From an uncultured Actinomycetes bacterium (lineage in GTDB: Bacteria > Actinomycetota > Actinomycetes > Nanopelagicales > Nanopelagicaceae): a DNA stretch of 20,960 bases. Position 1 is the first letter of the stretch. Every line of letters begins with the position of its first letter. The notes under the pieces were generated by a model. It was not told the DNA's origin, did no database searches, and was given only the letters and a program-made list of their open reading frames with translations. This document shows, piece after piece, positions 6,804-20,960 of the stretch. The position numbers and the translations under genes are program-made. The stretch is from the NCBI GenBank assembly GCA_937860175.1, contig CALMBJ010000112.1, positions 1 through 20,960 of the forward strand, read 5' to 3'.

Positions 6804-6879
6804 TGGTGCCCCCGGTCGGACTCGAACCGACACTGGAAGGATTTTAAGTCCTCTGTCTCTGCCATTGGACTACGGGGGC
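6804..6879 (-). tRNA. tRNA with anticodon UAA (Leu), short variable loop
   Basis: A complete 76-base cloverleaf with encoded CCA. The acceptor stem GCCCCCG pairs perfectly with CGGGGGC, and the discriminator base is A. The D arm has a 3-bp stem (GTC/GAC). The anticodon stem GAGGA/TCCTT encloses the loop CTTAAAA, so the anticodon is UAA. The T arm is GTCGG-TTCGAGT-CCGAC. The variable region is only five bases (CCAGT), so this is a class I tRNA, whereas bacterial tRNA-Leu normally has a long variable arm. UAA reads the leucine codon UUA and A73 fits leucine, but charging by LeuRS is not assured. Confidence 0.9.
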
Positions 6880-16141: not shown

Positions 16142-18463
16142 ATGAGCCAGAGCCAGATCGCTACCGATGATGCAGATCTTCGTAGCGATGTGCGTCGATT
16201 GGGCGATCTTTTAGGTCAGACCTTGGTTCGCCAAGAAGGACCAGAGCTTTTGGCACTTGTAGAAGAGGTTCGTAAAGCCGTTCGCGAAGGTAGTGGCGCA
16301 GAAATTCTTGCCCAGCTTTCAGTTGAAGATTCAGTTCAGCTAGTTCGCGCATTTAGTACATATTTTCACTTAGCAAATGTTGCAGAGCAGGTTCACCGTG
16401 CGCGGGTTTTGGCCGAGGCGCGAGTAACTGGTGGCTCTTGGTTAGCTCGTGCTGTTGATCGAATCGATGCGGCTATGAAGGCGCAAACACCTGGACATGA
16501 GTTAACAAAGGAAGAGATCACCGAATGGGTTAGCGCAATGTCGGTGCGCCCTGTTTTTACCGCGCACCCTACTGAGGCTGCACGTAGATCGGTACTTAAC
16601 AAATTGGGAAGCATCGCAGATTTACTTGATGATCCACGCAACCCTTCACAACAGGAACGGCTTGCAGAAACCGTTGATCTTCTGTGGCAAACCGATGAAC
16701 TTCGCTTAGGTCGACCAGAGCCATTAGATGAAGCGCTCAATGCTTTGTATTACTTAGATGATTTGTTTACTGAAACAGTTCCTGAAGTTCTCAATGATTT
16801 TGCAAAAGAGATGAAGCGAATCGATGTTGAGGTTCCGATCACCGCTCGCCCACTTTCCTTTGGAAACTGGATCGGTGGAGATCGCGATGGAAACCCAAAT
16901 ATCACCGCTGAAGTCACGACATCAGCTATGGAGCTGCAGGTATCTCACGCTATACGTGTGACTATCGCTGCGATGAACGCGCTGCGCCAGATGTTGTCGG
17001 TTTCAACAAAGATTGTTGGCGCAACGCCTGAGCTTTCAGCATCTGTTGCAAAGGATCTACAACATATTCCAGAGTTTGAACCACGTTTCTTACGCCTTAA
17101 CGCCGAAGAGCCATACCGCTTAAAGGCAACGGCGATTGTTCATCGCCTGGCATTTACCCGCGATCGTCACGCCAAGGGCGCACCACATGTTGAGAACCGT
17201 GATTATGCAGATACCGCAGAGCTTTTGGCCGATCTGGTTTTGATGCGCGATTCACTGCTGGCCCACCGCGGCGAACTGATTGCTACCGGCTTACTTGAGC
17301 GCACGATTCGCACCATTGCAGCCTTTGGAATTAACCATGCAACTATGGATGTTCGAGAGCATTCTGATGCTCATCACAATGTCCTTAAGCAGATCACTGG
17401 TATCGATGGATATCTTGAGAAGTCACATGATGAAAAGTTTGCTCTACTTGCTCAGATGCTCGCCGATGACCTTCGCTTTGATACCTCAAAGCTTGAAGCC
17501 TTGGGTACGAAAACAGTAGATACCTTTACCGCGATCAATGATTTGATCGATCGCTTTGGCCCAGAGGCTATTGAGACTTACATCGTTTCAATGACAAAGG
17601 GTGCCGATGATCTAATTGCAGCGGTAGTTATCGCTCAACAAGCCGGTCTTGTCTCATTGAAGGAAAAGAAGGCGCGCATTGGCTTTGCTCCATTGCTAGA
17701 AACCGTTGCAGAGCTTCGCGCAGCTGGTGAGATTCTTGAAAAGCTTTTAAGTAACCCTGCATACCGTTCCATCGTTGCACTGCGCGGTGATGTGCAAGAG
17801 GTAATGCTTGGTTACTCAGATTCAAATAAAGATGCCGGAATTGCAACAAGCCAGTGGGAGATCCACCGAGCCCAACGATCTCTGCGCGATGTAGCTATGA
17901 AGCATGGCGTGAAGTTGTGCTTGTTCCATGGACGTGGTGGTTCAGTTGGCCGCGGTGGTGGCCCAACTTATGATGCTTTGATCGCTTTACCTTGGGGTTC
18001 AGTTGATGGACAGATCAAGATGACTGAGCAAGGCGAGGTTATTAGCGACAAGTACGCGCTTGCATCCCTTGCCCGTGAAAATGTTGAGTTAACACTTGCC
18101 GCATCTTTAGAGGCAACGATTCTCAATCGTGGGCCACGACAGAGCACGCAAGAGCTTGCTGCCTGGGGCGAGTGCATGCAGCTTGTGAGTGATTCATCAT
18201 TTAAACGTTATCGCGCATTGATTCAGCAACCAGATCTACCCGCTTACTTCTACACCTCAACCCCCGTTGAACAACTTGGCGAGCTCTTCTTAGGATCACG
18301 TCCATCAAGGCGTCCAGATGCTGCCGGTGGACTTGATTCATTACGTGCGATTCCGTGGGTCTTTGGTTGGACTCAATCTCGACAGATTGTGCCTGGCTGG
18401 TTTGGCGTGGGTTCTGGCTTAAAGGCTGCGCGCGAAGCCGGTCATTCAGCGCTGCTTTCATAG
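16142..18463 (+). CDS. ppc: Phosphoenolpyruvate carboxylase, cut by an in-frame TAG
   Basis: PEPC carboxylates phosphoenolpyruvate to oxaloacetate, refilling the TCA cycle. AGAGGA seven bases before the ATG is the ribosome binding site. The active-site elements are intact: TAHPTEAARRS with His142, GYSDSNKDAG with Lys563, HGRGGSVGRGGGP at 596-608 with Arg604, and RAIPWVFGWTQSR. The frame stops at codon 774 with TAG (18461-18463), but continues open in the same frame to 18850 with the rest of a normal PEPC, for 902 residues in total. At the stop position E. coli PEPC has a residue just before MCRDWPFF, so one base change in a sense codon explains the TAG. As written, the enzyme lacks its last 128 residues and is unlikely to be active. 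Confidence 0.93.
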   Translation: MSQSQIATDDADLRSDVRRLGDLLGQTLVRQEGPELLALVEEVRKAVREGSGAEILAQLSVEDSVQLVRAFSTYFHLANVAEQVHRARVLAEARVTGGSWLARAVDRIDAAMKAQTPGHELTKEEITEWVSAMSVRPVFTAHPTEAARRSVLNKLGSIADLLDDPRNPSQQERLAETVDLLWQTDELRLGRPEPLDEALNALYYLDDLFTETVPEVLNDFAKEMKRIDVEVPITARPLSFGNWIGGDRDGNPNITAEVTTSAMELQVSHAIRVTIAAMNALRQMLSVSTKIVGATPELSASVAKDLQHIPEFEPRFLRLNAEEPYRLKATAIVHRLAFTRDRHAKGAPHVENRDYADTAELLADLVLMRDSLLAHRGELIATGLLERTIRTIAAFGINHATMDVREHSDAHHNVLKQITGIDGYLEKSHDEKFALLAQMLADDLRFDTSKLEALGTKTVDTFTAINDLIDRFGPEAIETYIVSMTKGADDLIAAVVIAQQAGLVSLKEKKARIGFAPLLETVAELRAAGEILEKLLSNPAYRSIVALRGDVQEVMLGYSDSNKDAGIATSQWEIHRAQRSLRDVAMKHGVKLCLFHGRGGSVGRGGGPTYDALIALPWGSVDGQIKMTEQGEVISDKYALASLARENVELTLAASLEATILNRGPRQSTQELAAWGECMQLVSDSSFKRYRALIQQPDLPAYFYTSTPVEQLGELFLGSRPSRRPDAAGGLDSLRAIPWVFGWTQSRQIVPGWFGVGSGLKAAREAGHSALLS

Positions 18464-18850
18464 ATGCTCAAGGAGTGGCACTTCTTCACAACCTTTATTA
18501 GCAACGTTGAAATGACATTGGCAAAGACTGATTTGGCACTTGCTAAACGTTACGTTGAAACCTTGGTTCCGGAAGAGCTGCACCACTTCTTAGATGAGAT
18601 CCAAGCTGAATTTGATTTAACCGTCTCTGAAATTCTTACCCTTACACAAAAAACAAGTTTGTTGGGTGATCAAGAGATCTTGGCCCGCACCTTGCAGGTG
18701 CGCGATGCATATCTTTCCCCAATTCATTTATTACAAGTGAATTTGTTAAAGCGGGTCAGAGATGCTGGTGATTCAGCAGATCCGGTTCTGCGTCGTGCTT
18801 TGTTACTAACAATCAACGGCGTTGCTGCAGGCTTACGCAATACCGGCTGA
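18464..18850 (+). pseudogene. ppc: C-terminal part of PEPC after the in-frame TAG
   Basis: This is the same frame as the preceding PEPC part. It encodes 128 residues, starting [20 protein letters not shown] and ending with the hallmark C-terminus [12 protein letters not shown] of PEPC. The segment WxFF...[14 protein letters not shown] matches the conserved C-terminal helices that pack on the active site. An ATG follows the TAG directly, and AAGGAG occurs only after it, so independent translation is unlikely to be designed. The coding quality is undisturbed, arguing for a very recent mutation or a sequence error. Confidence 0.88.
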
Positions 18851-19478: not shown

Positions 19479-20081
19479 TTATTCAGCTGCAGGTGTTGCT
19501 GCTGGTGCATCTGCTGCTGGTGCAGCTGTCTCTTCAGCTGCTGCAGTTGACTTCTCTGACAAGTGAACAACGATCATCTTTGGATCAGACTCAAGTTCAA
19601 CACCTGCTGGAAGCTTTACATCTGCTGCGTACTTTGAGGTACCTGATGCAAGACCCTGGATATCAAGCTCTAGGAAGTTAGGGATAGATGATGCATCTAC
19701 GCGAACTTCGATTGAGTTGTGTACATGCTCAAGGATTCCATCACGATCATGCTCGCCCACTGTGTGAACAGGAACTGAAACAACAACCTTCTCGCCACGA
19801 CGGACTAGAACTAGGTCGATGTGCTCAAGGATCTGCTTTAGTGGATCGCGAACGATTACCTTTGGAAGCGTTAGTTCGGTCTTGCCATCAATTGTGATGT
19901 CTAGAAGAACGTTTGACTGCTTCAGTGCAACGCCGATCTCTTTAGCGTTAAGAGTGATGTGAAGAGGCTTCTCTCCGTGACCATAGATAACTGCTGGAAC
20001 TAAACCATCGCGACGTGCACGACGTGATGCGCCCTTACCAAATTCAGTACGAGTGGTTCCGACGATCTTTACTTCTGCCAT
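19479..20081 (-). CDS. rplY: 50S ribosomal protein L25/CTC
   Basis: A 200-residue long-form L25 (CTC/TL5 type), which binds 5S rRNA. The N-terminal L25 domain (about residues 1-92) includes RTEFGKGASRRARRDGLVPA, then VIYGHGEKPLHI. The beta-rich C-terminal domain (about 95-180) includes PVHTVGEHDRDGILEHV. The last 25 residues are an Ala/Pro-rich acidic tail encoded by near-repeats with a 15-base period. In Bacillus CTC is a general stress protein. The AGGAG ribosome binding site, seven bases before the ATG, lies inside a perfect 11-bp hairpin followed by six Ts, so expression is probably controlled in the leader. prs is upstream and pth downstream on the same strand. Confidence 0.96.
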   Translation of the reverse strand: MAEVKIVGTTRTEFGKGASRRARRDGLVPAVIYGHGEKPLHITLNAKEIGVALKQSNVLLDITIDGKTELTLPKVIVRDPLKQILEHIDLVLVRRGEKVVVSVPVHTVGEHDRDGILEHVHNSIEVRVDASSIPNFLELDIQGLASGTSKYAADVKLPAGVELESDPKMIVVHLSEKSTAAAEETAAPAADAPAATPAAE

Positions 20082-20082
20082 G

Positions 20083-20127
20083 AAAAAACTCCTGTCATCT
20101 CAGTAATACATGAGTCTGACAGGAGTT
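20083..20127 (-). promoter_or_regulatory. rplY leader hairpin: terminator shape that hides the RBS
   Basis: AACTCCTGTCA (20087-20097) and TGACAGGAGTT (20117-20127) form a perfect 11-bp stem. A second helix, CTCA (20099-20102) with TGAG (20111-20114), closes the loop GTAATACA. On the minus strand the 3' arm contains AGGAG, the rplY ribosome binding site, and runs straight into six Ts and then the ATG. So one structure has the form of an intrinsic terminator and also sequesters the start site. It may attenuate read-through from prs, switch rplY translation, or both. Confidence 0.75.
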
Positions 20128-20218
20128 GGATACCTTGCCGTCGATAACGGTTCCGATTGAAACCCTCGCCAGAATGGTAGAAGTCTATGAGATTAGGGAG
20201 AAAGCTCCAAATCCCCGC
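20128..20218 (-). promoter_or_regulatory. prs-rplY intergenic region upstream of the hairpin
   Basis: A 91-base stretch without a gene. TACCAT (20179-20174 on the minus strand) is a possible -10 that would start a leader of about 80 bases before rplY. GGAG/CTCC just after the prs stop is a weak hairpin without a T-tract. No strong promoter is evident. Confidence 0.25.
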
Positions 20219-20960
20219 TTAGGAGTGACCATCAAAGAGGCTAGTGACCGAACCATCTTCAAAGACCTCGCGGATCGCACGGCCTAGCAGTGGAGCGATT
20301 GAAAGCACAGTCAGATTGTCAAACTTTTGATCCTCTGAAATTGGCAAGGTATTTGTAATAACTACTTCTGAGGCACGGCAGTTCTTTAAGCGATCAACCG
20401 CTGGCCCACTAAATACAGCGTGAGTTGCAGCGATGATTACATCTGCAGCGCCTGCTTCAAACAAAGCATCGACAGCCTTTGTAATTGTTCCCGCTGTATC
20501 GATCATGTCATCGATAACTACACATGTTTGACCTACAACATCTCCAACAACGCGACCTGTTACAGACTCGTTTGGAATACGTGGGTCGCGGGTCTTGTGA
20601 ATAAATGCGATTGGGCAGCCACCCAAAAGATCTGACCAGCGCTCAGCGACACGTACCCGACCAGAGTCAGGAGAAACGATTGTTAAACGTGTGCGATCTA
20701 CCTTGCTGCCAACGTAATTTGCAAGCATAGGAAGTGCAAAGAGGTGATCAACTGGACCATCAAAGAAACCTTGAATTTGTGAGGTGTGAAGATCAACGGC
20801 CATGAGGCGATCTGCACCTGCGGTCTTGAAAAGATCTGCCATTAAACGTGCGGTGATTGGCTCACGACCGCGGCTCTTCTTATCTTGACGTGCATATCCG
20901 TAAAAAGGAGTAACCACTGTGATGCGCTTTGCTGATGCGCGCTTTAGCGCATCGACCATG
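20219..20960 (-). CDS. prs: Ribose-phosphate pyrophosphokinase, N-terminus off window
   Basis: PRPP synthase, making phosphoribosyl pyrophosphate from ribose 5-phosphate and ATP for nucleotide, His and Trp synthesis. About 246 C-terminal residues are present. They include the catalytic flexible loop YGYARQDKKSRGREPI, the metal site VDLHTSQIQGFF, and the PRPP loop CVVIDDMIDTAGTITKA. The C-terminus ENTLPISEDQKF-type region (here TNTLPISEDQKF) and the final SVTSLFDGHS are typical. The Met at the window edge (MVDALKRASAKR) aligns to an internal position about 80 residues into the family, so the true start lies beyond base 20960. It is upstream of rplY in the same direction. Confidence 0.96.
   Translation of the reverse strand, partial: MVDALKRASAKRITVVTPFYGYARQDKKSRGREPITARLMADLFKTAGADRLMAVDLHTSQIQGFFDGPVDHLFALPMLANYVGSKVDRTRLTIVSPDSGRVRVAERWSDLLGGCPIAFIHKTRDPRIPNESVTGRVVGDVVGQTCVVIDDMIDTAGTITKAVDALFEAGAADVIIAATHAVFSGPAVDRLKNCRASEVVITNTLPISEDQKFDNLTVLSIAPLLGRAIREVFEDGSVTSLFDGHS

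Follow-up and report, generated by a model that had tools for sequence, protein, structure and literature searches.

In Escherichia coli, the gene rplY is subject to autogenous translational repression by its product, ribosomal protein L25, and the gammaproteobacterial L25 operator consists of an irregular hairpin in front of the ribosome binding site together with a conserved weak Shine-Dalgarno (SD) sequence GAGA, whereby these features are limited to species with a short bL25 (as described in a section of PMC10931766). For Actinobacteria, leaders of the ribosomal proteins L17 and L31 have been predicted by Eckert and Weinberg (2020), and the relevant section of that article mentions an L25 leader for Enterobacteria only (PMC7247131). 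Altogether, little is known about ribosomal-protein regulation in Actinobacteria, according to a passage in PMC8470358.

Here, we analyzed the rplY leader within a DNA stretch of 20,960 nt from an uncultured actinobacterium (hereafter called the window). It precedes the same gene as the gammaproteobacterial L25 leader, but its SD is AGGAG and not GAGA, and its bL25 has two domains (PF01386 and PF14693), whereas the gammaproteobacterial system belongs to a short one-domain bL25 (same section of PMC10931766). It resembles the actinobacterial L17 and L31 leaders as a cis-acting RNA in front of a ribosomal protein gene, although the genes are different (section of PMC7247131 cited above). Conserved structured RNA in the 5' leader, as in autogenous ribosomal-protein leaders, was found, and so was the stable stem with a following U-tract of intrinsic terminators (11 bp and U6 in the window), which is atypical of the family. 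Upstream of E. coli rplY (L238), the model R2 of the leader described below gave no match, its best hit (7.1 bits) lying elsewhere, whereby the comparison was one-way, with the actinobacterial model only. Homology to the E. coli rplY leader was considered and not found, the irregular hairpin not being recovered by R2. In the full-text literature (subscription papers and preprints being outside this scope), no report of an actinobacterial L25 leader was found, and the rplY leader family is apparently new to the literature. We favor the interpretation that this leader is a three-strand RNA switch, which most likely mediates autogenous repression by bL25 (probability roughly 0.62).

Table 1. Coordinates of the rplY leader and its neighborhood in the window
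Feature	Position	Strand	Basis
rplY, ribosomal protein bL25, two-domain CTC/TL5 form	19479..20081	-	Pfam PF01386 and PF14693 above cut-off
U6 run after the stem, terminator-like	20083..20088	-	Present in 13 rplY-linked variants; search pattern demands most of U6
SD-sequestering hairpin, perfect 11-bp stem	20087..20127	-	Fold; kept in 13 genus genomes
SD AGGAG of rplY, within the 3' arm	20089..20093	-	Sequence
Mediator (anti-core and anti-SD) strand AACUCCUGUCAGA	20115..20127	-	Duplex and fold tests
Conserved leader core: 5' strand UUCUGGCGAGGG, variable stem GGUUUC/GGAACC, 3' strand CCGUUAUCGACGG	20134..20175	-	Covariance models
Core 5' strand UCUGGCGAGGGUU, pairs with mediator (12 of 13 pairs)	20161..20173	-	Duplex test
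-10-like box TAGACT, presumed rplY promoter	20182..20187	-	TANNNT box recurrence in relatives
-35-like hexamer TTGGAG, weak, 17 nt ahead of the -10-like box	20205..20210	-	Read from sequence
Presumed prs (ribose-phosphate pyrophosphokinase), 3' part, upstream gene, runs off the window	20219..20959	-	ORF

The SD hairpin of the window and its variants in the genus

The minus strand at 20083-20127 reads AACTCCTGTCA-GACTCATGTATTACTGAGA-TGACAGGAGTT-TTTTC-ATG, whereby AACTCCTGTCA (20127-20117) is fully complementary to TGACAGGAGTT (20097-20087) on this strand and forms an 11-bp stem with it. The loop contains a 4-bp inner stem, and the ATG of rplY is located at 20081-20079 (minus strand), preceded by a C. 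The 55-nt hairpin folds with -21.4 kcal/mol (z -4.69), and none of 200 shuffled sequences was equally stable; a longer fold of 179 nt including the hairpin gave a weaker signal (z -2.21; 6 of 200 shuffles equally stable). With loops of 3-30 nt, one perfect 11-bp inverted repeat was observed in the 21-kb window, compared to a mean of 0.4 and a maximum of 3 in 60 shuffles. An 11-bp inverted repeat alone is not rare in 21 kb, and the hairpin stands above chance because of its position on the SD and its conservation, not because of the repeat length. In a simple terminator scan, which considers loops of 3-8 nt only, the SD hairpin was not among the listed terminators. The sequence-only reading had proposed a perfect 11-bp stem with the AGGAG of rplY in its 3' arm, followed by a spacer of six Us to the ATG, as a device that hides the ribosome binding site. 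Sequence and fold confirmed the stem, and the predicted sequestration of the SD is supported; in 13 genus genomes the hairpin is kept with matched changes in both arms. As to the spacer, six Us do follow the AGGAG, but the spacer is UUUUUUC and two of the six Us belong to the stem. The hairpin is real, yet it is the 3' part of a larger rplY leader, in which a conserved core comes first and the 5' arm of the hairpin lies within a strand that we call the mediator.

Variants of the window hairpin were searched in 135 genus genomes with the pattern AGGAGTTTTTTCATGGC, allowing one mismatch, whereby the pattern itself demands most of the U-run. This yielded 19 places in 18 genomes, whereby 13 of the places are located at rplY, each in a different genome. 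The core strand is AUUCUGGCGAGGGUUUC in each of these 13 variants. Their stems are of two types, CUCCUGUC/GACAGGAG in seven and CUCCUAGU/ACUAGGAG in six, which differ in the alignment by an A inserted in the 5' arm and by an altered 3' arm that restores the pairing, while AGGAG, U6, and the core-pairing mediator motif GUCAGA are constant across both. The GUCAGA pairs with the lineage's own altered core UCUGGC. Compensatory stem changes with the AGGAG kept, which the earlier reading had named as support for its hairpin, were thus present. In the L25 tree, the 13 variants do not form one clade; there are four label changes, at least three of which are forced by well-supported branches. Since the variants are in separate tree groups, the leader has been gained or exchanged more than once. 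The 13 variant loci lie within L273-L290, and the stem types do not follow the L25 tree, G020 with the window-type stem standing beside G060. The separate groups and the distribution of the stem types suggest that the leader may be exchanged apart from the L25 coding sequence.

It might be that the hairpin mainly acts as an intrinsic terminator or attenuator that also hides the SD and does so alone. The 11-bp stem of the stability given above with its UUUUUU would fit this explanation, as would the U6 that follows the co-changed stem arms in all 13 variants, while most other genus leaders have no U-run and contain A-rich spacers. Against it speak that the variant is patchy (13/135 genomes, four changes on the tree, with a pattern that required most of the U-run), that two of the six Us are inside the stem, and that GUCAGA pairs with the altered core, so that the hairpin does not act alone. 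The close relative L005, whose L25 is 91% identical, has a different 3' part and no U-run. The persistence of the hairpin in close relatives, on which the sequence-only reading had let its case depend, held for 13 of the 135 genus genomes and failed for others such as L005. Its proposal of a stand-alone attenuator was set aside as a general function because of this patchy U-run form and the different 3' parts in relatives, and we consider a hairpin acting alone as unlikely. In the window lineage, termination is plausible given the U6 after a stable stem; attenuation would be at most local, whereas SD pairing is broader.

The conserved leader core and its occurrence upstream of rplY

Upstream DNA of rplY was collected from genomes of the window's genus and family after protein searches, which found rplY in 93 of 101 genus genomes and 139 of 151 family genomes. 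This gave 157 family loci, 155 of them with a usable gene start, whereby L006 and L134 (contig ends) are not among the 155. The core was present upstream of rplY in 153 of the 155 regions, and both misses are contigs that end inside or before the core. Its consensus is GGCGAGGG, a variable stem of few pairs, and CCGUNAUCGA, with 17 invariant columns in an alignment of 58 sequences. In the window, the core was matched by the covariance model R1 with an E-value of 5.5e-9 (genome search) and by R2 with 37.8 bits, the runner-up in the window scoring 8.3. The distance from the core to the start codon ranges from 12 to 120 nt in the family regions. In several family genera the leader is short, with the core ending 12-23 nt from the start codon, so that the SD would be located at or beside the closing helix and a closing core would hide it. 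The G074 bin contains two rplY copies, one of which (L154) has the short leader of another family genus, probably due to bin contamination.

Of 143 distinct family upstream regions, 142 have a TANNNT box 12-30 nt before the CGAG of the core, compared to an expectation of 37.5 based on shuffled segments; the usual offset is -20 or -21. The box is likewise present in 44 of 46 class regions. This near-fixed distance implies that the RNA probably starts at the core and that rplY has its own promoter; in the window, the putative transcription start would be near 20175. The gene upstream, which we take to be prs from its recognizable sequence, is not a constant neighbor: 117 of 152 family regions showed the C-terminal prs motif within 300 nt upstream and 35 did not, whereas the core occurs in all 152. 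Thus, the core travels with rplY and not with prs. That the element uncouples rplY from prs, as had been suggested from the sequence, is plausible in view of the promoter-like box between prs and the leader.

Beyond the family, rplY was detected in 388 of 394 class genomes, and R1 matched in 151 of the 394 at E<=0.01, which is a lower bound since some cores with longer stems were missed. Most genomes had a single R1 match, located at rplY. There were 48 non-family matches at E<=1e-3; among 40 of these compared by eye, 37 are positioned just upstream of rplY on the same strand and three elsewhere. Model matches away from rplY were seen in G381, for the second match of G387, and at L224. In 20 class genomes without a listed R1 match, the core was still found upstream of rplY in 12 and was absent within about 420 nt upstream in eight. 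These eight loci (L241, L242, L243, L245, L248, L249, L251, and L252) point to loss or replacement of the core in some families. Named genomes were scanned with the pattern CGGCGAGGGN{4,34}CCGTNATCGACG, which gave at least 119 matches. For 92 of the 119 listed, the start of an L25 gene follows at a distance of about 13-168 nt; the other 27 comprise three at contig ends within 64 nt, one with 193 nt of remaining sequence, and others mostly in long open frames. For the 80 listed matches with titles, L25 is downstream in none of the 11 from outside the actinobacterial class, compared to 63 of the 69 not named outside it (three of the rest run off the contig and three are in long open frames). The genera among the listed matches include Streptomyces, Mycobacterium, Mycolicibacterium, Nocardia, Rhodococcus, Microbacterium, Brevibacterium, Nocardioides, Kribbella, and Trueperella. 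It is hardly in doubt that many actinobacteria possess a conserved rplY leader.

A search of 296 phylum genomes with R2 (E<=0.001) matched 15, of which 13 are the window's own genome or class members and two belong to another class. The latter two were rejected as real cores, both being located inside a long open frame, which presumably encodes elongation factor G. No true core was found outside the class among the 296 phylum genomes with R2, a search that is insensitive, as it missed the core-bearing class genomes G268, G316, and G329. The core is also present ahead of L25 frames with no more than 103 and 122 amino acids (L228 and L235). These are presumably too short for both domains, in which case the L25 proteins would have the 5S-binding N domain in common.

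The structure of the core was assessed in A3, an alignment of 69 distinct rows that was fitted to the covariance model and is hence biased towards the structure (L224, L232, L214, L216, L215, and some duplicates were left out), and in A1, an independent MAFFT alignment of family sequences only. In A3, the proposed pairs are formed in 91.8% of the cells, and each of the forms UA, AU, GC, and CG is represented at the two variable stem pairs. The covariation score was 0.192 compared to 0.051 for shuffles and 0.030 for the best slid version. Five pairs changed on both sides, which was equalled by 0 of 500 shuffles, while the count of further pair types was equalled by 56 of 500; of the 60 rows that have letters at the outermost P1 pair, 36 do not pair there. 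A1 also gave a raised covariation score (0.156, shuffles 0.054, slid versions at most 0.069); both-side changes and further pair types in A1 were not above shuffles, with 249 and 455 of 500, respectively, at least as high. Without a model, the stem averaged 4.94 pairs in 48 distinct non-family cores (2000 shuffles at most 3.19) and 3.67 pairs in 78 distinct family cores (shuffles at most 3.03). Stem length is freely variable, and in 24 of the 78 family stems pairing ends after two invariant GC pairs. The invariant CGA/UCG, the adjoining G opposite A, and the GUNA bulge may constitute a protein-binding site. Searches with Rfam release 15 gave no family over the core, neither for the window (up to E = 5) nor for 20 relatives (up to E = 2).

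The core might respond to a ligand other than L25, such as another ribosomal protein, a metabolite, or an assembly factor, with rplY merely as output. L25 as ligand is itself inferred, and an exact 5S mimic was not found, GGCGAG and GUNAUCGA being absent from eight 5S loci in a plain string comparison; autogenous ribosomal-protein leaders often, but not always, mimic the rRNA binding site. On the other hand, it is rplY and not prs that the core accompanies, and most genomes have their one model match at rplY. L25 of E. coli is a known autogenous repressor of its own mRNA (section of PMC10931766 on this repression), and by this analogy L25 is the candidate ligand. A different ligand is therefore rather improbable to us, and autogenous control by L25 is, by analogy, the likely mode. 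The leader sequence AUCGACG is complementary over 7 nt to CGUCGAU of the family 5S, a match that is imperfect in the 5S of other families.

The mediator strand and the proposed three-strand switch

The first 11 nt of the mediator are the 5' arm of the SD hairpin, and this strand can pair either with the core or with the SD. In the window, the mediator-core duplex reaches -12.5 kcal/mol, and 4.5% of shuffles are as good. In a typical genus member, the duplex is formed by GUUCCGGC-G-AGG and CCU-GCUGGAAC, and in Mycobacterium-like leaders by CACGGC-G-AGGG and CCCU-G-GCCGUG. Duplex tests were carried out on 90 non-redundant long leaders, 80 of 170 having been removed as redundant. Among the 55 family leaders, mediator-core pairing was better than 95% of shuffles in 26 and was not in 29; for the 35 class leaders, the counts were 13 and 22, respectively. 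The leader's own 5' flank was better than a swapped one in 50 of 55 family and 29 of 35 class leaders (Wilcoxon 1.6e-9 and 2.1e-5, p-values that ignore kinship and overstate the significance, since the leader sequences are related). This preference is reciprocal: UUCCG-type leaders favor UUCCG and UCACG-type leaders favor UCACG, and the UUCUG type of the window favors its own flank (-12.8 vs -9.5 with UUCCG). The comparison of flanks indicates that mediator-core pairing is lineage-specific. In the SD tests, from which L194 and L250 were left out, mediator-SD pairing was above chance in 14 of 55 family and 9 of 34 class leaders, and the own SD was better than a swapped one in 40 of 55 and 28 of 34. 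The two pairings overlap by at least 5 nt in 54 of 55 family and 27 of 34 class leaders. Significant mediator-core or mediator-SD pairing is lacking in roughly half of the leaders, and the dual complementarity is partly built in because the core GAGGG resembles an SD. In L234 and L235, the core 5' flank CUCCUCG is exactly complementary to the SD CGAGGAG, which would be an alternative core-SD coupling.

For the growing transcript of the window, the minimum-energy fold passes through three stages. At 60 nt it is the core hairpin, at 70-90 nt this is replaced by the core-mediator duplex, and from 95 nt onwards the core is restored together with the SD hairpin; the core-mediator state leaves the SD free and the last state closes it. 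For the full leader, the SD-closed (OFF) state has -38.3 kcal/mol compared to -28.6 kcal/mol for the core-mediator (ON) state. Given this advantage of 9.7 kcal/mol for OFF, a switch in the window lineage could only operate kinetically. At full length, the leaders L018 and L056 have their energy minimum in the core-mediator duplex, in which the mediator does not hold the SD. The Mycobacterium-like L190 and L192 adopt neither proposed state at full length, and their fold before the SD is core-mediator.

That the SD-closed fold is the minimum-energy one in the window could also mean a constitutive or temperature-like occlusion, in which the hairpin merely lowers rplY translation, with neither ligand nor switch. 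Such plain occlusion is improbable: it leaves unexplained the near-invariant core across the class and the lineage-specific mediator-core complementarity, and L018 and L056 pair the core with the mediator. A DNA element such as a promoter or operator, for which the position of the conserved block directly after the -10-like box could be quoted, is very improbable, given that the stem positions covary at a freely variable stem length and that the mediator covaries with the core from 50-100 nt away.

A three-strand switch in the rplY leader appears as a reasonably probable explanation. L25 would likely bind to the conserved core, which presumably lies at the 5' end of the mRNA. In the ON state, the mediator would pair with the core 5' strand and leave the SD free; in the OFF state, it would pair with the SD instead. 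On the simplest reading, whatever keeps the core folded frees the mediator and the SD closes; excess L25 would hold the core folded, and the released mediator would then close the SD. In the window lineage, with its perfect mediator-SD hairpin and U6, the OFF state might in addition stop transcription immediately ahead of the ATG, for which the chances are almost even. Attenuators and riboswitch expression platforms act by antiterminator/terminator or anti-SD switching. The rplY leader has in common with them three mutually exclusive strands and a conserved sensor with a variable downstream part, whereas its output is a single ribosomal protein gene and its presumed ligand the protein product. 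The downstream part varies by lineage, with the SD in the core closing helix, in an SD hairpin, or in a terminator-like hairpin.

Taken further, and tentatively, an undescribed leader family might control bL25 in many actinobacteria, including Streptomyces and mycobacteria. Its 5' sensor and mediator would form a three-state switch that closes the SD at excess L25, the downstream half being rebuilt between lineages among the three arrangements just named, with the SD hairpin doubling as intrinsic terminator in the window lineage, and the leader allele of that lineage would move between strains apart from the L25 coding sequence. A leader common to Streptomyces, Mycobacterium, Nocardia, Microbacterium, and others would mean that an L25 control system exists for the two-domain form as well, the core would offer a defined RNA for L25-binding tests, and the leader would be a case of one sensor joined to different outputs in closely related strains.

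Further observations in the window

At 6806-6879, a minus-strand tRNA is present, and the plus strand weakly scores as a Plastid-ycf2 5' UTR; with a score below the family cut-off, the latter was rejected as an artefact of the tRNA. At 16142-18850 (plus strand), two adjacent ORFs of 773 and 128 amino acids in the same frame look like one gene, presumably that of phosphoenolpyruvate carboxylase as recognized by name, which is split by an in-frame stop at 18461-18463, either a real break or an assembly error.
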